Of a stretch of 64,000 nt of DNA, positions 19,633-59,648 are shown in pieces. How positions within the stretch are numbered: the stretch's first letter is position 1; every line of letters begins with the position of its first letter. This DNA comes from Allomyces arbusculus (Eukaryota > Blastocladiomycota > Blastocladiomycetes > Blastocladiales > Blastocladiaceae): assembly GCA_027604705.1 (NCBI GenBank), contig JADHYV010000047.1:112891-176890 (forward strand), in the 5' to 3' direction. A program made the position numbers and the translations under genes. Under the pieces are notes generated by a model, which saw only the letters and a program-made list of their open reading frames with translations, was not told where the DNA came from and ran no database searches.

Positions 19633-21309
19633 ATGATGCGCCTTGCTACCCGCGCCCAAGCGCTGACCGCTTCGGTATGGCCACCGCCTCTGCCGCTCGT
19701 GCTAGCCTTCGCTCGCCGATCTGTTATGATCAAGTATTTCTGACCGTGATCGCGCTCGATTTTTTGTTGTTCAGGTCAAGCTCAACACGCGCGCCTTCTC
19801 GGCCGCGGCTGCTGCCATGGTACGCGTCCCCGATCGCGTCGAGCGTGCACGTTTTCGAGAGCGAGCAAACGAACTGACGCGAACCCCGTCCCGAATCCGT
19901 TCTGGTCCTTGCAGCAGCAGTTCCGTACCGAAAAGGACACGTTTGGCCCGATCCAGGTGCCGGCCGACAAGTACTGGGGCGCGCAGACGCAGCGTTCGAT
20001 CCAGAACTTCAACATTGGCGGTCCGACCGAGCGCATGCCGGAGCCGCTGATCAAGGCTTTTGGCGTGCTCAAGAAGTCGGCGGCCAAGGTGAACATGACC
20101 TACGGGCTCAAGCCCGAAGTCGGCAACGCCATCATCAAGGCGGCCGACGAGGTGATTGCCGGAAAGCTCAACGACCACTTCCCGCTGGTCATCTGGCAGA
20201 CGGGTTCGGGCACGCAGACCAACATGAACACCAACGAGGTGATTTCGAACCGCGCAATCGAGATGCTCGGCGGCGAGAAGGGGTCCAAGGCGCCTGTGCA
20301 TCCGAACGACCACGTCAACATGTCGCAGTCGTCGAACGATACGTTCCCGACGGCCATGCACGTCGCGGCCGTGACCGAGATCCACCACCGCCTGCTGCCG
20401 GCGCTCGCGCACCTGCACAAGGCTCTTGACAAGTGCGCCAAGGACTGGGACTCGATTATCAAGATTGGCCGCACGCACTTGCAGGACGCGACGCCGCTCA
20501 CGCTCGGCCAAGAGTTCTCGGGCTACGCCAAGCAGATTGAGTACGGCATCGAGCGCGTGAACGCGACGCTGCCGCGTCTCTACAACCTCGCACAGGGCGG
20601 GACCGCCGTCGGCACGGGGATCAACACCAAGAAGGGTTTTGATGTCAAGGTCGCGGCCGCGATTGCCGAGGAGACGGGTCTGCCGTTCCGCACGGCGCCC
20701 AACAAGTTTGAGGCGCTTGCCGCGCACGACGCGCTCGTCGAGGCGCAGGGTGCGCTCAACGTCCTGGCCGTGTCGCTCATGAAGATTGCCAACGACATTC
20801 GCTTGCTCGGGTCCGGCCCGCGCTGCGGTCTCGGCGAGCTGCTCCTGCCCGAGAACGAGCCCGGCTCGTCGATCATGCCCGGCAAGGTGAACCCGACGCA
20901 GTGCGAGGCCATGACCATGGTCTGCGCGCAGGTCATGGGCAACACGACGGCGATGTCGGTCGCCGGGTCCAACGGCCACTTTGAGCTCAACGTCTTCAAG
21001 CCCGTAATGATCAAAAACCTGCTCCAGTCGGTGCGCTTGATTGCTGACGCGTCCGTGTCGTTCACCGACAACTGCGTTGCTGGGATCCAGCCCAACACGC
21101 GCCGCATCGAGGCCATCATGAAGGAGTCGCTCATGCTTGTCACGGCGCTCAACCCCTACATTGGCTATGACAATGCTGCGGCCGCTGCCAAGAAGGCCCA
21201 CAAGGAGGGGACCACGCTTAAGGAGGCTGCCATGAAGCTTGAGCTGCTCACGTCTGAGCAGTTTGACCAATGGGTGCGCCCGGAGAAGATGATTGGCCCC
21301 TCGGACTAA
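19633..21309 (+). CDS. FUM1: Fumarate hydratase class II, mitochondrial
   Basis: Exons 19633-19674, 19775-19819 and 19915-21309 join in phase 0 to 493 residues. The two short 5' exons encode a mitochondrial presequence rich in Arg, Ala and Ser ([14 protein letters not shown], then [15 protein letters not shown]), and the third the whole catalytic body. Class II fumarase interconverts fumarate and malate in the TCA cycle. Seen: [34 protein letters not shown], the [14 protein letters not shown] segment, [17 protein letters not shown], and the fumarase/aspartase signature [15 protein letters not shown]. The internal ATG at the end of exon 2 falls right before the conserved body and could give a cytosolic form, as known for dual-localised yeast fumarase; that is inference. 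Confidence 0.96.
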
Positions 21310-21732
21310 GTTGTCAGTCAGGTCGGGTTGGTTTTGTGCATGCAAGGATGGGACGGACGCGTGAAGGGCAGGAGCGTCTGAGTGGAGGAGACCACAACGT
21401 CTAGCTGTCAATTAAGTTGCAAGCAAGGAATTATGAGAATCGCGAGATGAGGGTTTCACCCATGTGTGCATGCTTGGCCAGGAAACGACTGACCTATAAG
21501 TGGGGATCAATTAGGCATCAGCTGGGATCAGAAGTATGACTTTTATACGTCCTGACCAGCACAGCTCTTCCATTTGCACACCACTCTTCCTTTTCCTCGT
21601 GAACATCCTGACCAGCACAGAGGCTCTTTCACACAAGCATCCCATCCAGCAAAAAACAGCATTTCCCTTTGAACTTTGTGTCAGTTCCTGGGCCACTGCC
21701 TGCCACCTTTGCTTTGATGACATGTGCTGTGG

Positions 21733-21740
21733 TATAAATA
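21733..21740 (+). promoter_or_regulatory. TATA box of the decayed secreted-protein copy
   Basis: TATAAATA, 82 bases before the relic start codon at 21815. The sequence after it (GGTGCTCACTCTCCTCCTCA) aligns with the leader of the intact gene near 39835, so the promoter was copied along with the gene. Confidence 0.45.
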
Positions 21741-21814
21741 CACTGGCATGCACCTGGTGCTCACTCTCCTCCTCACAGCTTGAGTCCTCCTTTGCCCAGT
21801 CCTTCCATGGTACA

Positions 21815-22390
21815 ATGACAACAGAATCACCAATGACACCCAGTCCACACTACATGCCAATTAATTGCCCATCTGTCCTTTTTGTTGTTGTGCATTATGT
21901 CCATTGATATGTTGGTGCATCACTTCTGTGTGTGCATGTTTACTTTTTTCCACACCCTTGATTCCTCTTTCTCTTGACCCATGTAGGCTCACATGTCTGC
22001 CATTCCTCTTTCTTTGCAGGGCCCAGCATGTGGACATCATGTTCTTGACTGACAAGCAGGGGCAGATTGATGACATGCTGGTCAAGACCAGCCAACTGTC
22101 CTGTGCACACCTTCTCCTGGATAACAGTGCACACATGCAATGCAACCCAGGGTGCCAACCAGGAACTGCTCAACAAGGCTAGCAATGCCACTAGCCCCCT
22201 GCCAGTCCATTGGTCTCCTGTGACCCTTTCCCAGGCCAATGAACAGGCGCCAATTGATGCATCATTTGAGATCAGCAACATGGCTGACCACATGCTGCCA
22301 ACTATTTGCCTGGATGGCAGCATGTATGTGCAATGTGCCTATGGATGCCCATGGTGGAACAATTGTGCTGCTAGAGGCACTGGCAGTTCA
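21815..22390 (+). pseudogene. CpG-decayed paralogue of the 39.9 kb small secreted protein gene
   Basis: The block follows the intact gene at 39931-40463 piece by piece. The signal-peptide exon (21815-21931) has lost two bases net and carries an in-frame stop. The donor region GTGTGTG replaces GTGCGTG. An intron ends in TTTGCAG at 22019. The second exon then reads QHVDIMFLTDKQGQIDDM with SAHMQCNPGC, against HCAGVTFTIDTHALIDDA with EVHVQCKPGC in the intact copy. The second Cys unit is in another frame (EQAPIDASFEISNMADH and YVQCAYGCPWWNNC, against QQAPIDVES and VHVPCKPGCPWWKC). Most differences are transitions at CpG sites. Clearly homologous and clearly broken; whether it is ever transcribed is unknown. 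Confidence 0.8.
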
Positions 22391-22740
22391 CACATCTACT
22401 ATCTCATGCTGGCTTGTTCTCAAGGACCATCTCATGAGCCACTGCTCCTGGTGTCATGAGCAAATCGAGACTTGCATTCTTGCTCTCTCTCTTTTCCTGC
22501 ATCATGTTGCATCTCTCACCCCCCTCCCTCTCTCCATTTCTGACATCATGAATCATTGCCCTTTCTCTCTTTTGATTCATTGTGTTGTGTCACAGCAGCA
22601 TGACCACATGGTCTAGTGGTGGTGCGCAGCAATTGTGCTGCACCATTGCTCAATATACATGGATGGTTTTCCAAAATATTGCTAGAGTCCTCTTTTGCCT
22701 TCTCCACCCTCTTGACACAATGCCAACAGTGGTGGGCTTA

Positions 22741-22752
22741 CCCCCCCCCCCC
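22741..22752. repeat. Poly-C tract in the CpG-poor block
   Basis: Twelve consecutive C followed by a CT-rich stretch. Confidence 0.85.
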
Positions 22753-22999
22753 TCCCCTCCTCCTCCCCTCCACTGCTCTCAGTTCCTGGCTGCTCAATTT
22801 TGCTTTCTCAAAGACTCCCAGCATCAAACTGTTGCTGCAGTTGCACTTGTTGCAATTAATACTGCTGGTAGACCTGGGCCCAAACAATGGACACAATTTG
22901 ATCCTGATAATGATTTCCTTCCAATTGCACTTCCAAAATGGCATTCAAGGTGCAGGCCCCTGGGTGGGCCACATGCTGTGTCCCTGTCATTTCACAGTA

Positions 23000-23370
23000 T
23001 CAGGTGAGCCATGATGGTGTGTCTTCATCACACTCTTGGGTGCTGATTTTTGCTGAATTTGACCAATTTTCCAGGTGGACAGTGAGCACAAGGGCTGATA
23101 CCTGATCTGGTAGCATGTCAAGGCCCCCAGTTACATTGAGCCAGTGCCCAATGGCAAGCACAGCATCTTCATGGTGATGCTGACAAGCAATGACACTGTC
23201 CACACTACAATGACCAGATCATCGACAAGTCATGGCCGCCCATATTGTGCTTGCTCCTGGCCAAACTGTGGGAAATAGGATTGTCAACTTCCATGTTGTC
23301 CTCACTCCCAGTCAAGTCCAAGTTGTCATCACTTGCAGACAAGCCCACATCGAGGGAAATCATCAATGAC
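23000..23370 (+). pseudogene. Unidentified decayed coding segments
   Basis: Two stretches look coding once single stops are ignored. Near 23074-23240 the frame contains PSYIEPVPNGKHSIFMVMLT with a TGA and a TAG just before it. Near 23233-23370 a frame reads AAHIVLAPGQTVGNRIVNFH and VLTPSQVQVVITCRQ before a TGA. The TGA codons would be CGA before CpG decay. I do not recognise the protein; this may be a dead gene or an old mobile element. Confidence 0.3.
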
Positions 23371-24126
23371 AATGGCCCAGGACTGCACATCATCCAAAAA
23401 CAGCAGTTCAAGGTGATCAAAATCAACCATAGTGCACCCAGCCCCCAATGTCAAAAAATCTGGGAAACTTATGAGGCATAAGCAAATTCTCCAGTGATCC
23501 AATTGTTGGAGCGAGTAAGATGTTGGGCAAACGGTCAGAAAGATATGATGTTGGCCAGGTGGGGCAGAGATTCCAGCAGCAAGTCTATCTATTGGTGGGT
23601 GGAATCCCCTTGACAATGCCAAAATACACGGTAGACTTGTGGAAGATTTGAGACATGGAGGCGTCAAAGTTGCTTATCCACTTGAGAGTGGGATGCAAGA
23701 TGGGGACACCGCCATCACACTTAATTGCACATCCAGCTTGGCACCATCATAACAGAAATGTGCCAGGCGTGAGATGCTACCAGGAACGCCATGTGGGGCG
23801 GCCATGATGCTGCTCAATGCTGTTAATTGGACAGGGACAAAGGGGCAACTAATTGAGAGGCGCTAAAGCGGGTTGGTGTGGATGACGATGATGAGTAGGA
23901 TCCTGAATAATTATGGCCAAACAGAACTGAGCAGTGTGAGGCGATGTTTCTTTGATCATGTGAGATGTTACTGTTCCACAGTTGCTGTGGTGTTTTATGA
24001 CAAGTCCCGGGTCTGTGAACTTGGAATTGTTGCTCGCGGATGCGGGAGATGTACCTGGGCCAAGAGTTCCCCCGTTCGACTGATATTATTGTGCTGCAGT
24101 GGAAGGCTGACGTGCTTTCCACCAAT

Positions 24127-24363: not shown

Positions 24364-25034
24364 GGCTACACGGACACGTCGTCATGTCGACCGGCAAGGA
24401 AGGGGTCGAGTTGTGATGGTGTTGGTGTCGATTAGAGTAGAAGCTTGCTTTATGATATGCAAATAACATTTTCAAGCTCGTTTTGAGCAGCAGCGTGATT
24501 CAATCCAGACCAAATCCAAAACAACCCAAAACCGAGCAATCGTTTGATATGGGCGCCTACCTGGCTGCTGAAACTTGAAACGTACAGGCCACCCCGCGCG
24601 CAGACGCACTCGATCACTTCGCCCCAGTTTTTCCCTTCATGATCTTGCTGCACCGTCCCCACACATTCGCCTGCATCCGTGTTCATGCCGTGAGATTCAA
24701 TCGCGTTCTCCTTCGCCCCTCGACGATCGATTTCAGCTCAAGCAGCACCAGTACTCCGCGCGACGAACACAGCCGGCCATTTTCCGCTCAACGCGACGCT
24801 CGCACGCGACGTCCAGCGCCGCGCCGGACTCGACCAGTGAGCTCAACAGTATCACCCGAAGGCGCAACACCCCCTCGCCACACGCACGGAAACGGTCAGG
24901 AACATAATCGTGTCGAGCGAGCCGCACCGGGTTCCCAGCTGACTAGCATGGGGATGCGGCAAGTAACGGCCGACCACGTCGATCCCGTCAACACCATGGT
25001 GTCGCCGCTCGCTCCAACGAAATGGCGAACGCAA

Positions 25035-38810: not shown

Positions 38811-39930
38811 GCGGGAGCGGTATGGCAAGTGCTCACGACCACGAAGCGCGCACGACTTGTCGCTTGCGAATTTGGATCGACGCTCACGGGGATCGTGGTG
38901 GCCGGCCGGTACCGACGTGTGCAGATTGCGCTGCCACCAGCGTGGCAGGTCTGTCGGTGGTCAGGTCGCGACTTGGGCGGTCACCAAGCGAGGCGCGCCG
39001 CGCTGGCGATGAGAGGAGGGGATGCACAACGGTGCGACTTGGAATGGGGTTGGCATGGGTTGGGATGTCATGAACAGTTGGATGGATAAATCGTGATGGA
39101 ATAATGTGAGAGGGGCCGGCTGCATTGATCATTTGATTCCTGACCACGCGCCTTGCCGCACAAACTGACGGCGAAAGCCTTGGCGAGGTGTTGACGGGGT
39201 GTATTTTCCACGACCATCGTGATGGTATCCACCATTCCCGCGACCTGCCGCGCATGGCATGCCGTAGACCAGACCGCACGCAGAACTCGAGCAACCTGAC
39301 CAGACTGTTGATTGCTCCGGCCGGCCAGCAACCACTACTGCTGAAACAACTTATTAAGAGCCCAAACCCAATCAGAATGCCGTGAACATATGTATCTGTC
39401 AAATATCGCATTTCTGTTTGAATCCAGGCCGTGGAAAGTAAGCACAGTGAGATCAAACGTGTTGGCCGCCACGATCACTTCTTCACGTCGCCAACAGCAA
39501 ACACCGCAGCATCTCGTCGTAAGAATGTATGAGCAGTTAAAATTCAGTCCGGAAATGGTTTCGCGGCTCCAGAACATCACAATTATGGTATGTGGTGGCA
39601 CATTGTTTAACGATACTTAGAATGCACCCCGCGCTTCTTTTCAAATATCCCCCCGATCTTTGCTGATCTGACGGCTTCCGTTCGTGCACTCAACCTGCAG
39701 GTATCGCAGCACAATAGAAGCACATCGGCCTGTTCTTTCGAAAGTCCTGACTTCATTCCACGGCGTCGATTCCTGGGCATCAATGTTGTGACTCCGCGGG
39801 ACGCCCACAGTATACTGGCGCGCGCCCGACATGGTGCTCGCTGTACTCCTCACGCCTCGATCCCGGTCCCCCGCTCAGCGCATCAGCGGCACGACGACGG
39901 GGGAACCGCCAGCGACGATCGACTCGCATC
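38811..39930. other. Intergenic region
   Basis: About 1.1 kb, lower in GC than the housekeeping blocks. The first 85 bases after the stop were included in the duplication seen at 41189-41365. The right end is the promoter of the secreted-protein gene, whose leader aligns with that of the decayed copy at 21.7 kb. No gene. Confidence 0.5.
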
Positions 39931-40463
39931 ATGACTAAGTCTACACTGCCGTCTCAGCTCGCTGGCCGCATGTCTGCCCTTCGCGTCGTTGCACTGCTCG
40001 TGCTTCAGCTCATCACGACCGCTGACGCGTCGATACATCACTACCGCGCGTGCGTGCTGTTTTTTCCCCATGCCTTTGCTTTCACTGTATCTCGACCTGC
40101 ATCGACTGACATGTCCGCCCTCGTTTTGCTTGCAGAGCCCACTGCGCTGGGGTCACGTTCACGATCGACACACATGCGCTGATTGACGACGCATCGGTCG
40201 TCACCAGCAACCAAGCTGGTGCGCTCGTGACGATTCGCCCGGATAGCGAGGTGCACGTGCAATGCAAACCAGGCTGCCCGTGGTGGAAGTGCTTGTGCTA
40301 CACCCCAAACAGTGAGCAGCAGGCGCCGATCGACGTTGAATCGCTTGTCGCTGCAGCTGACCGCACGTCACCAGTGCATGGGCGTACGACGCTTCATCTG
40401 GATGAGGGCGTGCACGTGCCATGTAAGCCAGGATGTCCCTGGTGGAAATGCTATACCTGCTAG
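39931..40463 (+). CDS. Small secreted protein with duplicated CKPGCPWWKC motif
   Basis: Exons 39931-40049 and 40136-40463, intron 86 nt (GTGCGT donor, CTGAC before TTGCAG), 148 residues. Exon 1 is almost entirely a signal peptide (MTKSTLPSQ, then SALRVVALLVLQLITTADAS). The mature part starts AAHCAGVTFTID and holds two units, each a stretch of about 40 residues ending in VHVQCKPGCPWWKC and VHVPCKPGCPWWKC; the first unit is followed by LCY, the second by YTC at the C-terminus. I know no family with this motif. Paired cysteines and tryptophans in a small secreted protein suggest a disulphide-stabilised extracellular factor; no toxin or enzyme activity can be claimed. Relatives at 21.8 kb (decayed), 27.3 kb (broken) and, by signal exon only, 45.2 kb. 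Confidence 0.75.
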
Positions 40464-41188
40464 GCGTGCATCCATCTCGCGCTGTCTCGCCCTTCCGGCA
40501 AAGCTCGGGGAATGCATTGTGCGCGACTGCTTGTAAGGTGTGGGCGGGCGTCGTGAGCCTTGCCATGGGCAGGTCAAGGCGAATGTGTTTTGCACTTGTC
40601 GGATTCGGGCGTCTGTGCAAGAGCGTCCGGTCCTGAGCGATCCGCGCCCAGTCGCAAGTGCTCGATTTGTGGTTGATTTGTATAAATTTCCTTGTCATAT
40701 TTCCCCGATCACGCATCCCTTCCACCGCACGTTTTATCGGCTCCACCACCAACAACAGCGGACTCTGTTGCTGTTTGATCTTGTTGGCAAATAATTACAA
40801 AATATGAGTCTGAAAATCATGTTAATTCGCACCATCCTTTGAACATGACTCTGTTCATGCTAAGCGCGTGGTTCAGGGCGCGGTTCCTGTTTGGAAACGC
40901 CAAAAACATGATCGCACGCAGAACCCAACATGGCCATTATGGTCTCTGGAAGGCACTGTGCCAGTTAGGATCGTCTCAAACCGAGCCATGGCGGGTCAAA
41001 GCTTGTTCTGGGCAATAAATAAACGCTCTATGGGCGGAGCGTTGTAGAAAGTGGATGTGCAACGTGTCAAACGATGGGGAATCCATGCTGGTGCTTGATG
41101 CTAACCAGGATGGATCCAATCCCACCACACACACTCACCTCCTCCTTTCGACTTTCCTGTCTCACCCGTACCGATGTGCCAGCACCTT

Positions 41189-41365
41189 CACGCACCACCA
41201 TGACTCACCACTCGCCACGCTAATCTGGGTCAGCACAGGGCGTGCCGCAGTGATGCACTGCGTGCAGCTCAATGTGCTTGTAATTGCTTCAGACTTAGGT
41301 GGAAAAGGAGCACAAGCGTGTGCAACTTGCCGCTTGCGATTTTGCATTGACCCTTATGGGGATCG
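41189..41365 (+). pseudogene. Decayed copy of the last exon of the SIM-protein gene
   Basis: Positions 41189-41298 align without gaps to 38701-38810, the end of the 37584 gene. For example, GTGATTGTCATTGACTCGGA in the source is GTGCTTGTAATTGCTTCAGA here. Homology continues past the stop, with one deletion, to about 41365 (ACTTGCCGCTTGCGATTTTG against ACTTGTCGCTTGCGAATTTG). Many changes are C to T or G to A at CpGs. The terminal acidic-hydrophobic motif is destroyed. It is a fragment, not an expressed gene. Confidence 0.75.
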
Positions 41366-42284
41366 CGCCATACTGCAATACAGTGCATCATATTGTGTCC
41401 AAAATCAGCCGAACAGCGACTTCCATCATGCAGGAGCAAGAGGTCGAATCGGAAATTCTGTGAAAAATGGCAGTTGAGTTTGTGTTGAGCACAAGTGGTG
41501 GTGAACTTGGGCAAAGAATGCAGGAAAGAAGGCTCTGCTTGTGGCTGCTTTAGCTGGCACGCCAAGCATCCGGGTTGCGATCCCTTGAGGTGGAGTGCGG
41601 TCATTGGCACAGAGCCAATTGACCGCCATCGAAGGGACCAGAACACTTCATCAACTTCGAGCAGAGCTGGGTTGAAAATGTGCGAGCCATGCATTTCAAT
41701 CAAAGCCATTCCTGCCCGTCATTTATGTGATCTCAAAATCTACAAGGTCTTGCGCGCATCAGGTGCTACTGGGCATATTTCGTGAATGCTCGACGTGATT
41801 GGTCGTGAGAATTGAGAGGCTCTCGGTTTGGTCCCGCTTGGTCTGCTCCTAAACAACTTGCACCGCTCAAATTTTTTTTGTCTGCCTTCATTGCAACGGC
41901 CGCTACTGACAAAGGACAGTCGACGCCAGCGTCATACTTCTTCCCTCACCAAGCTCACACACCCCAAATGGGAATGATACCGCATCACAAACATGTCACA
42001 CCCCTGATTGTTCCATCACGCTCCAGTACTCTTCTGATTCAGCCTTGCACGTTCAGCCCAATGTCCACCGTTGGCCACGGAGCTTTTTCTCGCTTGTGCC
42101 ATGCTGCAAATATCCAGTATGATTCTACGGCGCGTACGCGCCAAGTCGGACCTCACGAACCGCTCATTCTCCATGGGCGCAGGCGCGCGTGATGGGCCGC
42201 ATCTGCACATTACGCTAACTATCTTGGTACACTGTCATTGAATCATGCCCACGCCTTCATCATGGAGTTGGGCCACTTGATCGA

Positions 42285-42480
42285 CACTCGATTGATGCCG
42301 TGGGCTCGATTGAGCGTTAACAATGCCTTGGGCACCCCCTCAATCAAGCTCCAACATCGATTGAGCAAGTCCCCAAGGACCAATTGCACGCGGCCTTCTC
42401 CTCAATCGAGCAAGAGCCATGGCCGATTATCAAGACCATGCTGCCGTTTGAGCATGGTGCTGCTTGTTTGAGCATAATAG
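42285..42480. repeat. Cluster of short GATTGAGC / CTCAATC repeats
   Basis: Variants occur in both orientations: CTCGATTGA (42288), GCTCGATTGAGC (42304), CTCAATCAAGC (about 42339), CATCGATTGAGC (about 42356) and CTCAATCGAGC (42401), then two TTTGAGCAT. Spacing is irregular, about 15-60 bases. Confidence 0.5.
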
Positions 42481-43830
42481 ATTCCATTGACGCTTAAATA
42501 TTCATCTGAGAGCAACATTTCTGCATTGAGCACACCAGAATATCATTCCACCAGCTCGACAATTCAGTTCACAACGTGATCCCCCACTCGTCACAACCAA
42601 CGAAAAAACCGAAGCAAAGAATCTCTCCACCTCTGACCCCCCATCACAACAAGCCCGAGTACAAAGCGTGCAAGAACAAGGCCTCGCAGGGAATCTTAAA
42701 GCACTTTTTATTGCGGACGCAATGGCGAGACGCACATAGCCAGTTCACAGTACCAGCTCAGTCAGCGGGTGATCAAGCATGAGCGACTGATCTGAGCAAA
42801 GTGAGATGCTATTGTAACCTGTCAAGGAGCCATGATCGCAGCGTCCAGCGCATCACGCCTAGCAATCCAGCGTTAGTTTCTGATCGGCGGATGTCGTAGA
42901 AGTGAGATCAGCATGGCCCACCCCTGGTTCCGGCAGCGTGAGTAAGCGAAAGGAGGCGTGGAGAAGGTGCAGGGGGAGATGGAGGTGCAGTGCCCTGTCA
43001 ACAGGTCTGGACATGCCATGCTCGGCCTGGTCACCACCAACCAGTGCCCCGCGCGAGTCTCATAGCCGCCACGCGTTGATGGAGCAGCTGGTCTCTTTCA
43101 AGAGTGCTGTCGGCAACGTGCGCGCGTTTGGCCACGTGTGAGATTACAGCGCTGTGTGTGAGAGCGGCTGCACGTCATGCGGCCAATGTCCTACAAATTG
43201 CCATGATTTTGCGCAAGATAATGCTTTCACAGAGAAGTGCTGTGCTGCTCGAAACAAGGTCGAGATTCAGCCATCAGTGTGTATCTCCTCGGACAAGAGC
43301 GTGGCCAAACCTTGAAGTTATCATCCGTCATGAGACCACAATTTCTCGCACGGCCGCAAACGGTGGGGCTGTGAATTCAAATCGCGTCGTCGGTGGAGAG
43401 AGAGGGAGGAGCAAACATGGGGTTGGCGCATCGTTGGAACGCACCGTCAGGCCTCTTGGTGCTGGTCTCACAACAGGCCAACCCAGCAACACGGCAACAC
43501 TGGCCCCGCTGTTGATGATCATGGCCAAGCCAACATAATTTCTCAAACAGGGCCGACATGAGGATATGGTTGCAAAAGGAGCAAAACAATGTGGAGCAGG
43601 GAGAACTCACTCAGTATTCACATAGGACGGCGAGAACGGAAAACATTTGCTTGATACGCAATGGTATTGAGTCGAACAGCGCGGCGCGCCAGACCGACCA
43701 ACGGCCGACAAAGAACAGCAAAAACGGAATGATAAACGAATAAGCAAGGTACACTCGGACGCTAAACCATGTCCGGGAACATTTGCTGGCACACACGCCA
43801 GCGGGAGTGGGCTCGGTCGATGCAGGGCAG

Positions 43831-53467: not shown

Positions 53468-54189
53468 GGAGTGAGCGAGTGCGGCAAGTTAGCGGCGTCG
53501 GGGAGCGAGCGCCGGCCGCGCGCGCCGCATCTTTGCTGGATCGTTCGGCCGGTCAGTCGGCGCCGCCGATGCCGATGCGGTCGTGGTGCTCTTCATCGCG
53601 GTGCGACTCCAGTGCGACTTGCGGTGCACCAACTTCCCGTTCCTGGATCGAGCCCACGGATCGAGCCCACGTGCCACATCCACCGCATCCACCGCAGGCC
53701 CGCCACCGCACGCGTGCGATCCATCCACAGGCCGGCCACGCGCCCCAGGACCTCGCCAGGCACGCACGCCATGGCGTGCCCGCGCGATTGATCCATGGCC
53801 ACGAACGCCGCCCCGTTCGCGCTGAGCAAGCCGCCCCTGGATCGTGCACACGGGCCCGCGCGGGCCCGCGATGAGGACGCTTGCCTGCCAGCTTTCCCGC
53901 CGCTTTCACGACCTGGTCACCTTCGTAGCCGCGCGCTCCACCTCGTGCACGGTGACTGCCAGCCTGCTATCAGCTCGGCAGCCAGCGGGTGCGCCGACGC
54001 TCACCAGACCGCGCCCCAGTCGGCCCGGAGGCGACGCCTACGCACGACGCGTCTATTTGCGTGCGCCCGCACCTTCAACCGTATCGTTATATAAATCAAG
54101 GTGTTCGCGCGCCCGTGGACCAACCTCAACGCCCCTGCCGCCGTTGCTCTTGCTCTCCATCTTCAGCAACCACCACAACAGCAACCAGC
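53468..54189. other. Divergent region ERF2 / first CGS-like gene
   Basis: About 720 bases. The right part (from about 53940) resembles the upstream region of the second CGS-like gene: GTGACTGCC-like and GCTCACCAGACC elements followed by CACCTTCAACC and the TATA box. This shows that the promoter was duplicated with the gene. Confidence 0.6.
54088..54096 (+). promoter_or_regulatory. TATA box, first CGS-like gene
   Basis: TATATAAAT, 102 bases before the ATG at 54190; preceded by CTTCAACCGT as in the second copy. Confidence 0.7.
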
Positions 54190-55599
54190 ATGTCCCACGA
54201 CGCTACGCCCCACGGCCTCGCTACGCGCCTCTTGCACGCCGACGCCGACCTCAGCCTCGGCACCAACCAGCCCGTCGTCGCGCCCCTTGCCGTTGCGACG
54301 ACGTACATCCAGCCCGAGCCCGCCGACCTCGCCGCGTACTTGGCCGCGGCGCGCGCCAAGCACTTCCCGCAGCCTGCTCATGCCGTCGTCGAGGATGCCG
54401 AGCCCAAGCCCTACATTTACAGCCGCATGGCCAACCCGACCCTCGACCGCGTCGAGGCCGTGCTCGGCGCGCTCGAGCAGTATTTCGGGGAGGAGGCCCA
54501 TGCCGTCGTGTACGCGTCGGGGCTCGCGGCGATTGCAGCCGGTGCGTCAATCTCTTGCCCTTGCTCGATTTACAAAATGAACTCCACCTGATGCCATGCT
54601 CCCAAAATAGCTCTCCACCACGCGCAGCCGCGCCGCATTATCGCGCGGCTCGGGTACCATGGCACGCTCTTTGGCATGGCTGAAGTCATCCGCGGCCGGT
54701 CGGGCCCCGACGCCAACATGCCCTGCGCCGTCGTCCCGCTCGAGACGGCGCTCGCCGGCGGCGCGCCCCTGCCGGGCGACGTCCTTGTCGTTGAATCCCC
54801 GAGCAACCCGTGGGGCGGATTGCCGAACCTGCCCGCGCTCGCGGCCTGGATCAAGCAGACCGAGGGCACGACCTTGATCGTCGACGCGACGCTCGCGCCC
54901 CCACCTCTCCAAAACATTCTCGGCGTCAAGGGCGTCGACCTCGTCGTGCATTCGGCGACCAAGTACCTCGGCGGCCACTCAGACCTGCTGGGCGGGACCG
55001 TTGTCGCGCGCAGTCGCGCGGTTGCCGAAACACTGCGCCGCGAACGCACGTTCCTCGGCGCGGTTCCCGGGAACCTCGAAGCGTGGCTGCTGCTGCGTTC
55101 TTTGCGTACCGTGCACCTGCGCGTGCCCGCGCAGGCCAAGACCGCAACCCAGCTCGCAACCTGGCTGCAATCCGTCGTCAACGGCGAGATCCCCTTGCTC
55201 GCGGGCACCGTGACCAAAGTGCACCACGCGAGCGTCACCTACTTTGACGAAGTCCCCGACTCAGACGATCCCGCCGCGCCCGCGCCGTCGTCCGTTGCGC
55301 GCGCGCTGTTCCCGACGGAACAGTGGAGTCCCGTCCTGTCGGTGGAACTCGGTTCGAAAGCGGCAGCCCGCGCATTGCCGCACTTGGTGAGTTATGGCCG
55401 TGCGGCCACGTCGCTAGGCGGCGTCGAGTCGCTGCTCGAGTGGCGGTACCAGCAGGACCCCAAGGGGGTCCCGGATACGCTGGTGCGCGTGTCGGTCGGG
55501 CTCGAGGATTTCGAGGACCTCAAGGAGGATTGGACGCGCGCGTTGTTGGCGGCCAAAGACGTTGCCGAGGCCGTGGCCGCAGAGACGGATGCTGAGTAG
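54190..55599 (+). CDS. Cystathionine gamma-synthase-like PLP enzyme, copy 1 (YHR112C-like)
   Basis: Exons 54190-54541 and 54611-55599 give 446 residues. Cys/Met metabolism PLP-dependent (aspartate aminotransferase fold) family. Seen: GLATRLLHADADLSLGTNQP, VAPLAVATTYIQ, YSRMANPTLDRVEAVLGALE, YASGLAAIAAA, the family-specific RLGYHGTLFGM, VVESPSNPWGGLPNLPA, LIVDATLAPPPLQN with the cofactor-contacting Asp, and the PLP lysine in HSATKYLGGHSDLLGG. The C-terminal domain has the SVGLEDFEDLKEDWTRAL signature. The GYHGT motif points to the uncharacterised yeast YHR112C group rather than to Met/Cys enzymes of proven activity, so the substrate is open. The neighbour at 56976 is a tandem duplicate. Confidence 0.88.
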
Positions 55600-56975
55600 G
55601 AGCGAGGGGATTGGGCTGGCACGCGTTAAGTTAATTAGTTAGGACCTGTTTTGCACACCTGTCGTTTTGCAATGTTGGTGGTGTTTCTTGACCGACTGTC
55701 CATCTTCGCGCCTGTCCACTGTGCTCAAATTCAGCGCTGGTCGAGCCACCATCTCGGCCTCCAATATCCTGAATGCCGGTTTCATCAGCGACGGATCGCG
55801 AAACGTTCGCGCGTTGCCTATTTGACATTTGTCTTGCTCCTGAAGCCCTTGACGCACGCAATTCGAGTCGCTTCCCCTTCACTCCTGCCACGACGCTCAC
55901 GCACCAACGCCGCGTGTTGCATGCAGTTCATGCCGTTTTGGTTGCCCCAAGCATCGGCAAGACGATCAGGGCAATCCATGGTTGCGCTATCAACTGTAGC
56001 GGGTGAAGGTGCAACACCGTTTTCTAAATCCATTTTTCTACAAACTATGACAGCCGACAGAGGCGAAGTACGATCTCGAACTCAAGATCGCGATGAGATT
56101 TGCACGGCAAGGGCCCACGCGCCAATGGGGAGAAAGGCGTTGTGTTGCAAATATCAATCTACCTGACAAGCGGAGTACGTGTGTTCACAATAGTCTTGGT
56201 GCAAAGTCGTCGTGCAGTTTCGGAACGTCCAAAAATTCCCAGCTTTTGGCAAACTGGCTGACACTCGGATGTCTTCTGGGCGCGGGAATGGGTTGATGTT
56301 CAGTCCTTTCAAGTGCCACCTCTGATCGTGCTGGGAACCGTTAAAAAGCACGCGCGGACGAAGTCGGGCGGTAATCTTGAGCGCGTTCATGCGTGATTGG
56401 AACAATTTCTACCGGATGAACATGGCCTGTGGCGTCGCCTCCCGTTCGCGCATAACTGCTTCAAACGTATCAGTTCCATTCCTTGTCCCTGGGAGGACCC
56501 ACGAGGACGAACGAAACACGACCAGACGGTGCTCAGCGGCCGCGTATCTGAGCGCTGACTGTTCCTGTTCAAGCCCCTCACCACCGACAACACACGCGCT
56601 GCCGCACCCGAGGACTTTGTGCCCACGCTGCACACGGCCGCCCTTGGACCCGACGATGAGAAATGCGCATTGCGCGCGCGTAGTTATCACGACCGCGCGG
56701 ACACCCTTCTCTCGTGCGCGGTGACTGCAATCAACCTGGCGAGTCAACCATGGAATTCAATCAACCTCCGGTCAACCGCAGTCAATGCGCAGACGCTCAC
56801 CAGACCACGGCGACGCGATGCGCGCTTACTCTCCATGGCCTGCGCCCGCCCCTTCAACCGTTATGGTATATAAATTCAGTCGTCTGCCCGGACGTTGGAG
56901 GGCAACAACTGTCTAGGACCCGACAGCGACGCGCCCATTGCTCCCAGCAAGCCCATCCCATCTCCTGCATCAACC
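55600..56975. other. Spacer between tandem CGS-like genes
   Basis: About 1.4 kb. The left kilobase has lower GC and no gene. The last 300 bases are the second copy's promoter, related to that of the first copy (GTGCGCGGTGACTGCAATCA near 56715; ACGCTCACCAGACCACGGCG near 56795). Confidence 0.55.
56867..56875 (+). promoter_or_regulatory. TATA box, second CGS-like gene
   Basis: TATATAAAT, 109 bases before the ATG at 56976, preceded by CTTCAACCGT exactly as in the first copy. Confidence 0.7.
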
Positions 56976-58395
56976 ATGACCGCTCACGGCCTCGCCACGC
57001 AGATGCTGCACGTTGATGCCGATCTTGGCATCGGCACCAACCAGCCCGTCGTCGCCCCGCTCTCTGTTGCTACGACGTACATTCAGCCCGACCCGGCCGA
57101 CCTGGCCGCACATCTCGCCGAGGCACGCGCCAAACACTTCCCCCAGCCGGCCAATGCCGAGGAGAGCGACGCGCCCAAGCCCTACATTTACAGCCGCATG
57201 GCCAACCCGACCCTCGACCGCGTCGAGGCCGTGCTCGGCGCGCTCGAGCAGCATCTTGGAGATGAGGCGCACGCGGTTGTTTACGCGTCGGGGCTTGCGG
57301 CCATGACCGCTGGTACTTTTTTGCAACATAGACCATTTTCATGCGAAGTGGGAGAGCGGTTGCGCCGAAATTGCAGCTGACCGTTGGGCTGTAATTTCCC
57401 ATCGTGTAGCCCTGCACCACGCGCAGCCGCGCCGCATCATCACGCAGCTCGGCTACCACGGCACATTTTCAGGTATGGCGCAGATCGTACGCGGCCGCGC
57501 TGGTCCCGACGCCGACACCCCGTGTGCCGTGATCCCGCTCGACGTCGCGCTCGCCGCGGGCGTCCCGCTTCCCGGCGACGTTCTCGTTGTCGAGTCGCCC
57601 AGTAACCCATGGGGCACGCTGCCGAACCTGCCCGCGCTTGCGTCCTGGATCAAGCAGACCAAAGGGACAACGCTGATCGTCGACGCGACCTTGGCGCCGC
57701 CGCCGCTGCAGAACATTCGCCAGATCGCGGGCGTCGACTTGGTCGTGCACTCGGCGACCAAGTTTTTGGGTGGCCATTCGGACCTGCTGTGCGGCGCCGT
57801 GATTGCGCGCGACAGTCACACGGCAGCGACGCTGCGCCGCGAACGCACGTACCTCGGCGCGGTCCCTGGGAACCTCGAGACGTGGCTGCTCTTGCGTTCT
57901 CTGCGCACCGTGCACCTGCGTGTACCCGCGCAGGCCAAGACGGCGACGCAGCTCGCGACCTGGCTGCATGCCGTAGCCAATGGCGACGTGCCCGGGCTCG
58001 AGGGTACCGTGGCCAAAGTGCATCACGCGAGCGTCGTCTATGCGCACGACGTGGCCGACTCGGACGATCCGCTGACTGCGGCACCGTCGTCGGTCGCGCA
58101 CTCGCTGTTCCCGACGGGCCAGTGGGGTTCAGTCATGTCGGTCGAGCTCGCGTCGCGCGTGGCTGCACGCGCTCTGCCACATCTTGTTGCATATGGTTGT
58201 GCGGCCACGTCGCTCGGCGGCGTCGAGTCGTTACTCGAGTGGCGGTGGCAGCATGATAAGACGGTGCCGGATACGTTGGTGCGCGTATCGGTCGGGCTCG
58301 AGGACTTTGAGGACCTCAAGGCGGATTGGACGCGCGCGTTGCTCGCGGCCAAGGACGTTGCCGAGGCCGTGGCCGCAGAGGCGGATGTTGAGTAG
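56976..58395 (+). CDS. Cystathionine gamma-synthase-like PLP enzyme, copy 2 (YHR112C-like)
   Basis: Exons 56976-57312 and 57410-58395 give 440 residues. It is closely similar to the 54190 gene along its whole length, and the intron lies at the same codon and phase (after A-T-A, before LHHAQPRR) but is 97 nt rather than 69. PLP lysine in HSATKFLGGHSDLLCG; GYHGTFSGMAQIVRG matches the family motif. Exon 1 differs mainly in the acidic loop (AEESDAPKP against VVEDAEPKP). Both copies keep all visible catalytic residues, so both are probably active. Retained promoter similarity suggests recent tandem duplication with dosage or regulatory benefit, which is inference. Confidence 0.88.
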
Positions 58396-59648
58396 GCAGG
58401 ATGAAAGCGATTTTCTGCGCAGATGTCGCCGAGCAAAAGCGGGCGTTCTTTTTCCGGGAAGGTTGGAATGTATTTCTGTAGAGCCCTTGATGGAGTTGAA
58501 GATTCAATTGGCCGCGCATCAGATTCGCAGGCTGTCGCCGTACGTGCATCGGACATTCTTTGCACAAGATTCGACTTGCTCCGCTCCCACACTACTCCAC
58601 CGCCGTCGCAGCTGGACTCTGCAGCCGCTCTCCATCAACATACTGGAGAAATGAATTGTCACAGGGACGCGCTGGCCGCTCCAGCTGCGGCTGCGGCTGC
58701 AGCTGCAGTTGCCAACTCTGTCGGCGATTCTGACGATGATGGCGACTTTGATGGTGGTGGACCTGGCTTACCTCCCATGCTGCTGCTGCAACTGCCACCA
58801 AAAATCGACACGTGCCCGAATGCCATCAGCTCAACAGAGGCGCCATCAGACAGCGACGTTAGTGATGGAAGCAAGTGGCAAGGCGGTGGACGTGGCAATG
58901 GGGGGTGATGATGTGTCCTGGCTCTAAACGCTCTTTGATGTCTCCGACCAATCCTGATTTGTTGTTCTTCTTTTGTGTTTTTGAACCCTCTCAGGTCGAG
59001 CGTCTGTCTGTGCCTGAAAGGAACTGCCAGACATGATCCACCCCGTTTTCATTCACCGTGGCCATGTGGAGGCGCAGTGTCGCCAAGGAAACATGTCTTG
59101 CGGGTGAACGAACAAGTGATACAAATAATACAATTCGCTGACGTGACGCCAGAAAGGACGAGACCTTGCGTCTGGGACGCGGCCGCGGCCGTGGCGCGTG
59201 TGCGCACCTTGCCGCGGTCGTCACGACCTTGTACTGCGTCGCGAACGTGCCCGTGCGCGGTTTATGCTGAGCTTCATGGGGGCGGGGGGTGGTTTTCTGC
59301 ACACGCCACGCGCCCCAGACACGCACCAGTGGCCGAGTGTTGGCATTGAACCCGTTTCGTTCAATCGATTTGATGTTTTGTAGCCGAATCGAAGTTCTTG
59401 CAAGTCCGAGGCTTGGGAATTTTACCAATCGGTGGTGGAGAAAACATGGTGAATGAGCAAGAGCAAGGGCATGCAAATGACGTGGCGGAAAAACGCGTCT
59501 TTTCGAAGGCCAAATCAACAGCTCTCGCAACAACCTCAACTCGGCGGCGGCCACTTATCGACAACCGCCCAGCATCTTCAACTCCTTCGCCGAGAGCACC
59601 CGCAATCCAATCGTGGAAACGTGAACTCGATCCTGTGCAACCGCCGCC
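58396..59648. other. Intergenic region before VPS53
   Basis: About 1.25 kb. A short Ala/Asp-rich frame (58651-58908) on a GCTGCGGCTGCAGCTGCAG run is probably spurious. No gene supported. Confidence 0.5.

Follow-up and report, generated by a model that had tools for sequence, protein, structure and literature searches.

A CpG-depleted pseudogene island in Allomyces arbusculus and the CpG methylation that may have eroded it

Why has one copy of a small duplicated gene of Allomyces arbusculus lost almost all of its CpGs, while its partner in the same stretch of DNA is rich in them? The whole stretch analysed, here called the window, comprises 64,000 nucleotides of contig JADHYV010000047.1 (C47 below, other contigs being labelled likewise). 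The original prediction had read the poorer copy as carrying the footprint of 5-methylcytosine (5mC) deamination, comparable to silencing by RIP or MIP but restricted to CpG, and had held that this would be noteworthy in an early-diverging fungus; the host, an Allomyces of the Blastocladiomycota, is one. Our results support the footprint and disfavour duplication as its trigger.

The pseudogene and the CpG-depleted island

The duplicated pair consists of the following parts:

21723-22397, + strand: pseudogene, a decayed copy of the gene at 39931-40463, upstream stretch, exons and intron included
22021-22182, + strand: exon 2 of the relic, first repeat, in a single frame that ends at the TAG at 22180-22182
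22214-22363, + strand: second repeat of the relic, with the CPWW motif, in a different frame from the first
39787-40477, + strand: block homologous to the pseudogene, with a CpG observed/expected ratio (o/e) of 1.16 and TpG+CpA of 1.43
39931-40050, + strand: exon 1 of the intact paralogue, with a hydrophobic, signal-peptide-like start, read by eye
40051-40136, + strand: intron of the intact paralogue (GT...AG), assigned by eye
40137-40463, + strand: exon 2 of the intact paralogue, with two CKPGCPWWKC repeats

That the relic is a copy of the intact gene, as had been claimed, is borne out by alignments that score beyond all shuffles. Self-blastn pairs 21893-22156 with 40011-40278 (65% identity, E 1.5e-18), local alignment at the locus reaches a score of 367, where the best of 200 single-base shuffles gives 167, and for the block 21723-22397 the score is 385, no more than 135 being obtained in 100 shuffles that preserve dinucleotides; the homology is real and far above chance. 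It takes in the two exons with their intron and a stretch ahead of the start codon. The copy is a pseudogene, since its start codon falls in a 17-base alignment gap, a TAG lies in the frame of the first repeat, and the second repeat, which matches a repeat of the intact protein with 41% identity over 49 residues (E 3.8e-4), lies in another frame. The predicted product of the intact gene has 148 residues. No Pfam family matches it, the protein search gave no homologue at E <= 1, and when the protein of exon 2 was compared with its own genome, itself and the relic were the sole matches at E <= 0.001.

The relic lies in a wider island:

19909-21309, + strand: fumarase gene, flanking the island
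about 21401-23950 (C47:134291-136840), no strand: CpG-depleted island, its edges judged by eye from 200-base windows
21599-23222 (1,624 bases): island core with 3 CpGs, TpG and CpA raised, TpA not
22398-23950, no strand: rest of the island, whose similarity to the region 3' of the intact gene is no better than that of shuffles

Between 21401 and 23950 there are 23 CpGs where about 186 are expected. In the core the dinucleotide o/e values are 0.03 for CG, 1.80 for CA, 1.97 for TG and 0.33 for TA, against 1.13 for CpA, 1.12 for TpG and 0.43 for TpA in the flanks; TpA/ApT is 0.29 in the core and 0.39 in the flanks, and GC 0.49 and 0.61. The edges, being read by eye, are gradients over some 400-800 bases: on the side of the fumarase gene, whose product matches an Allomyces macrogynus ATCC 38327 protein with 100% identity along the entire query, successive 200-base windows from 20801 give a CpG o/e of 1.14, 1.05 and 0.71. 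The island is bounded by this gene, which ends at 21309, and by open reading frames starting at 24639, and it runs 1.5 kb beyond the detectable duplicated block. The same window outside the island has a CpG o/e of about 1.24 (sd 0.18, 153 windows, minimum 0.60), and nowhere else in it does a 250-base window fall below 0.35. The possibility raised with the original prediction, that similar CpG poverty occurs in other DNA of this genome, found no support: outside the window, no 300-base window below 0.35 was present in 20 loci (192,890 bases), a non-random sample of 12 pieces of C47, six methyltransferase loci and two arbitrary tiles. On this 20-locus sample, CpG poverty is not the rule.

What the rest of the island derives from was sought in several ways. 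A DNA search of the 25.9 Mb genome gave no further copy of 21700-23500. Homology to the surroundings of the intact gene extends neither downstream past the block nor upstream before 21723, 37 of 100 dinucleotide-preserving shuffles reaching the observed score in each case; a wider downstream homology, hinted at by a score of 190.3 where 20 single-base shuffles had not exceeded 183.6, was dropped after those 100 dinucleotide shuffles. Neither DNA search nor transition-tolerant alignment gave anything convincing for a transposon origin, none of 10 island fragments matched Pfam, and repeats within the island are short and imperfect. In six-frame tblastn of the island against selected loci, the known relic matches stood out among the matches listed, the others being weak or of low complexity. 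Two weak protein-search matches (E 1e-3 and 0.04) over a proline-run stretch in the rest of the island were taken as chance.

The neighbourhood of the intact gene has a composition of its own. Outside the island, 21 of the 200-base windows of the window have TpG+CpA of at least 1.45, and 9 of these fall in 39001-43600, around and behind the gene; CpG is mildly low 3' of the gene (o/e mostly 0.65-1.1). This neighbourhood may be mildly eroded, and perhaps represents an early stage of the CpG erosion seen in the island.

The substitution pattern at CpG

When transitions are tolerated in the alignment, 58 of the intact copy's CpGs can be compared, of which the relic keeps one and has TpG or CpA at 47; with uniform mismatch scores, one of 55 is kept and 44 are TpG or CpA. 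At the background rate so few kept CpGs have a binomial P of about 2e-17, and the non-CpG divergence between relic and intact copy is K2P 0.36. The count by dinucleotide context, proposed earlier as a check, thus shows substitutions enriched at CpG (57 of 58 lost). Strong erosion is confined to one copy, as had been predicted: the intact block has the CpG o/e of 1.16 given above.

Is the loss a matter of CpG, or of cytosine in general? Changes from C to T or G to A affect 43 of 103 CpG bases and 39 of 210 other C/G bases (19%; Fisher P 2e-5), or 42 of 103 and 29 of 208 in the second alignment (P 3e-7). In the reverse direction, 35 of 259 C/G bases of the relic face T or A in the intact copy (14%), so that directionality outside CpG (19% versus 14%) is slight. 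This is a footprint of the 5mC-deamination kind, confined to CpG, with other contexts near background. The 36-base alignment put forward originally is indeed gap-free, and all seven CpGs of its intact copy are lost; six of them became TpG or CpA and the seventh TpA, so that the conversion was not as uniform as claimed. The further statement that the other differences are nearly all transitions holds within those 36 bases (four of five) and fails over the block, where transitions outside CpG amount to 16.3% and transversions to 11.6%.

The pattern does not fit RIP of the Neurospora type, because CpA or TpG became TpA at only 4 of 96 sites, with no CpA>TpA excess, TpA is not raised in the core, and CpA and TpG are.

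CpG loss in mobile elements and other duplicates

The reverse transcriptase profile RVT_1 matches at least 10 places in the genome. At these ten loci, a non-random set chosen for reverse transcriptase, CpG o/e is 1.05, 1.01, 1.31, 1.12, 1.08, 1.06, 0.78, 1.28, 0.54 and 0.31; three are thus CpG-poor in a graded manner (0.31, 0.54, 0.78) and the other seven lie between 1.01 and 1.31. The lowest is the only one of the ten with an internal stop and lies inside a second desert:

C1:899.6-904.0 kb, about 4.4 kb: C1 desert, CpG o/e 0.00-0.46 in 11 windows of 400 bases

This desert has flanks with a CpG o/e of 1.33, an abrupt right edge and a graded left one. It is composed of repeats and has 48 matches in the genome, a count that includes the query and hits inside the desert; a contig-end stretch on C115 is likewise CpG-depleted. 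Erosion does not strictly track visible decay: the mildly low locus at 0.78 (L037) has an open frame of 957 residues. Inside the C1 desert we also observed a near-palindromic inverted repeat without CpG (L046, 6410-7083), which is perhaps a nested DNA transposon.

We compared the relic with other duplicates through the ratio of log CpG loss to K2P distance at other sites, calculated per aligned pair. The first set consisted of chosen pairs with alignments of at least 200 bases for transposable elements (TEs) and at least 300 for others; the second comprised pairs of at least 150 columns, giving 15 non-RVT and 17 TE segments, with two L046 self-matches without CpG omitted, and also the matches that recurred through L039 and L040 (the same DNA as L047 and L046). 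Within the window, a tandem duplication served as control:

53990-55600, + strand: copy 1, Cys/Met PLP-enzyme gene, CpG o/e 1.30
56786-58396, + strand: copy 2, Cys/Met PLP-enzyme gene, CpG o/e 1.29

The two copies are 75% identical, and both are CpG-rich. They are the sole pair in the non-RVT set known to be coding, and the others may include transposons; selection also makes genes a rough yardstick for CpG loss.

The ratio of the relic is 11.4 to 11.8; taking the upper 95% bound on the fraction of CpGs kept (1 in 58) lowers it to about 6.7. In the 17 TE segments, several of which have fewer than 10 CpGs each, it ranges from 2.6 to 39.6. Nine non-RVT segments of at least 240 columns outside the locus L015 (one of them at 83% identity) give 1.4-1.8, this being a subset chosen after the values had been seen, which omits two short non-RVT segments (4.0 and 5.3) and four segments from the GC-poor L015 island (2.0-3.7). 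The contrast between TEs and non-transposon duplicates is therefore not clean, the short non-RVT and L015 ratios overlapping the lower TE values. L015 (C22:28001-38000, GC 0.515) has internal repeats, and a mobile or viral element may have integrated there. When loss is set against divergence, the relic and the divergent L033/L046 pair stand highest, and the closest TE pair (K2P 0.022) has already lost 11 of 19 CpGs, a small sample, though one compatible with rapid loss in a burst. In its decay the relic resembles a transposon. Its CpGs have gone at six to eight times the rate seen in the longer non-RVT duplicates, and since its ratio lies within the TE range no extra process is needed to account for it.

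Methylation genes and the origin of the scar

A search for methyltransferases of the DNMT1 type, suggested earlier as a check, was successful. Among six loci in the genome that match PF00145, the gene on C3 is DNMT1-like (match to PDB DNMT1 with E 1.3e-53) and has FSGCGG, PPCQGFS, ENV, QSRRR, QGFPDNF and GNAVPP, which we take to be its catalytic motifs. Over 92% of its length, the encoded protein shares 92% identity with a protein from A. javanicus and 90% with one from A. macrogynus. A replication-foci domain is above the cut-off in the proteins of these two Allomyces relatives and not in the C3 piece scanned, and a BAH domain is below the cut-off or unseen. The genome thus encodes a predicted CpG methyltransferase of the DNMT1 class. 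A second gene of this class seems to be present on C19, where the nearest PDB relative, over the fragment compared, is DNMT1. The loci on C10, C27 and C12 (L013, L014 and L016) are DNMT2-like by motif in a reading by eye, one PF00145 stretch on C10 containing a TGA, and the C5 methyltransferase on C22 is by eye of bacterial or viral type.

In animals, UHRF1 and DNMT1 jointly maintain CpG methylation. The SRA domain occurs at two places in the Allomyces genome, and at one of them (L041, C1:137965-141429) PHD (E 2.4e-7), SRA (E 1.9e-37) and RING (E 1.2e-7) lie in adjoining frames, which we took as one gene; this UHRF1-like locus matches PDB UHRF1 with E 9e-67. Piwi is found at four places in the genome. 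Searches for TET/JBP and for RdRP gave no match, and neither did their controls.

We propose, and consider likely, that the island is silent DNA in which CpG methylation has long been present and whose CpGs were eroded by deamination of 5mC. A small gene was copied by duplication at the DNA level, its intron and upstream stretch being kept, and the copy lost its function by deletion and frameshift. The dead copy and its surroundings would have sat in silent, CpG-methylated chromatin, with DNMT1 and UHRF1 upholding the mark; silencing, and not duplication, may have drawn methylation to the locus. Methylated CpGs would then have been deaminated to TpG or CpA faster than other sites changed. It weighs against this proposal that the island, unlike the C1 desert, contains no recognisable transposon.

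Could the duplication itself have been sensed? A CpG-restricted process of the MIP or RIP kind, hitting the pair, chiefly one of its members, within a single sexual cycle or a few, would account for the erosion of one member of a two-copy family, and the apparent second DNMT1-class gene and the TE pair with heavy CpG loss at low divergence elsewhere would suit it. TpG+CpA is also somewhat raised in the intact copy, at 1.43, the 306 200-base windows outside the island averaging 1.15 (sd 0.19), and the partner could have been lightly affected; such a process keeps some probability, partly because this value argues against a wholly untouched partner. As far as is known, RIP and MIP hit both copies of a duplication, whereas here the partner remains CpG-rich, the island is 1.5 kb longer than the detectable block, and CpA>TpA shows no excess. 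None of the nine longer non-RVT duplicates outside L015, in the subset described above, shows excess loss, and among TE copies the loss is graded, three of the ten retroelement loci being eroded. In excerpts of PMC4352252, RID1-dependent RIP is confined to Ascomycota among 10 fungi. The trigger that had been suggested is therefore disfavoured, and we regard a process of this kind as unlikely. We give slightly less credence still to a bolder version, in which Allomyces would possess a homology-sensing, CpG-restricted de novo methylation older than the Dikarya that marks mainly one duplicate, extends beyond its limits and, through deamination, erases it.

Two further explanations come into question. 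The intact copy might have gained CpGs, through GC-biased conversion or codon preference, the relic keeping an ancestral CpG-poor state, and the protein search found no outgroup sequence or intact orthologue of the relic by which the changes could be polarised. It is the relic that is the outlier, however, in a window that otherwise has a high CpG o/e and a minimum of 0.60; moreover, the island takes in the intron, upstream and non-homologous DNA, and TpG and CpA are in excess in it, so that we hold a gain of CpGs to be very improbable. The most improbable of all is an origin of the island as CpG-poor DNA from a virus, a bacterium or another eukaryote. The lower GC of the core would agree with it, but the drop in GC is accompanied by the TpG/CpA excess, and 21723-22397 aligns to a resident gene including its intron, an argument that covers this first part of the island.

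Several known systems come close to the case described here. As in Allomyces, methylated transposons of Basidiomycota and Tuber (Microbotryum, rusts, truffle) show C>T changes at CpG in silent or repeated DNA; the present case differs in that it concerns Blastocladiomycota and a host pseudogene of which no further copy was found, in a genome with a UHRF1-like gene. Neurospora RIP likewise leaves C-to-T transitions in a copy of a duplication, but it prefers CpA and raises TpA, and here the partner keeps its CpGs. In Ascobolus, MIP would put methylation on duplicated DNA, from which a CpG scar could result; it affects both copies within the repeat, whereas here mainly one copy and 1.5 kb beyond are involved, the comparison being of scars and not of methylation. 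In vertebrates CpG depletion by 5mC deamination, with UHRF1-DNMT1 maintenance, shows the same dinucleotide scar, and the proteins are homologous; in Allomyces the scar is confined to islands, as the CpG content of the rest of the window indicates.

Fungal 6mA and 5mC have reportedly been surveyed by Mondo in 2017 and by Bewick in 2019, and Catenaria belongs to the same phylum as Allomyces. Weighing against our proposal, an excerpt of PMC8298701 describes very low 5mC in Catenaria, an early-diverging fungus. The recent review PMC13297926, in the passages available, describes 5mC as near-undetectable in early-diverging fungi, with 6mA in its place. According to excerpts of PMC4352252, CpG signatures go with Masc2-type enzymes and CpA/CpT signatures with RID, the basidiomycetes with a CpG signature having a Masc2-type DNMT1 enzyme and no RID. 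Rust transposons lose CpG and GC with age, as stated in part of PMC12774611, and an excerpt of PMC7862722 indicates that DNMTs of Blastocladiomycota were included in an earlier tree. Among the open-licence papers searched, none was seen to describe 5mC or CpG decay in Allomyces. The mechanism itself is a known one; what seems new is the lineage.

What does the scar mean for the biology of these fungi? Together with the DNMT1-like and UHRF1-like genes, it suggests long-acting, focal CpG methylation in Blastocladiomycota, and the scarred loci are named places in which to look for 5mC. If this is confirmed, an early branch of the fungi would have an animal-like DNMT1-UHRF1 arrangement that silences transposons and a pseudogene.
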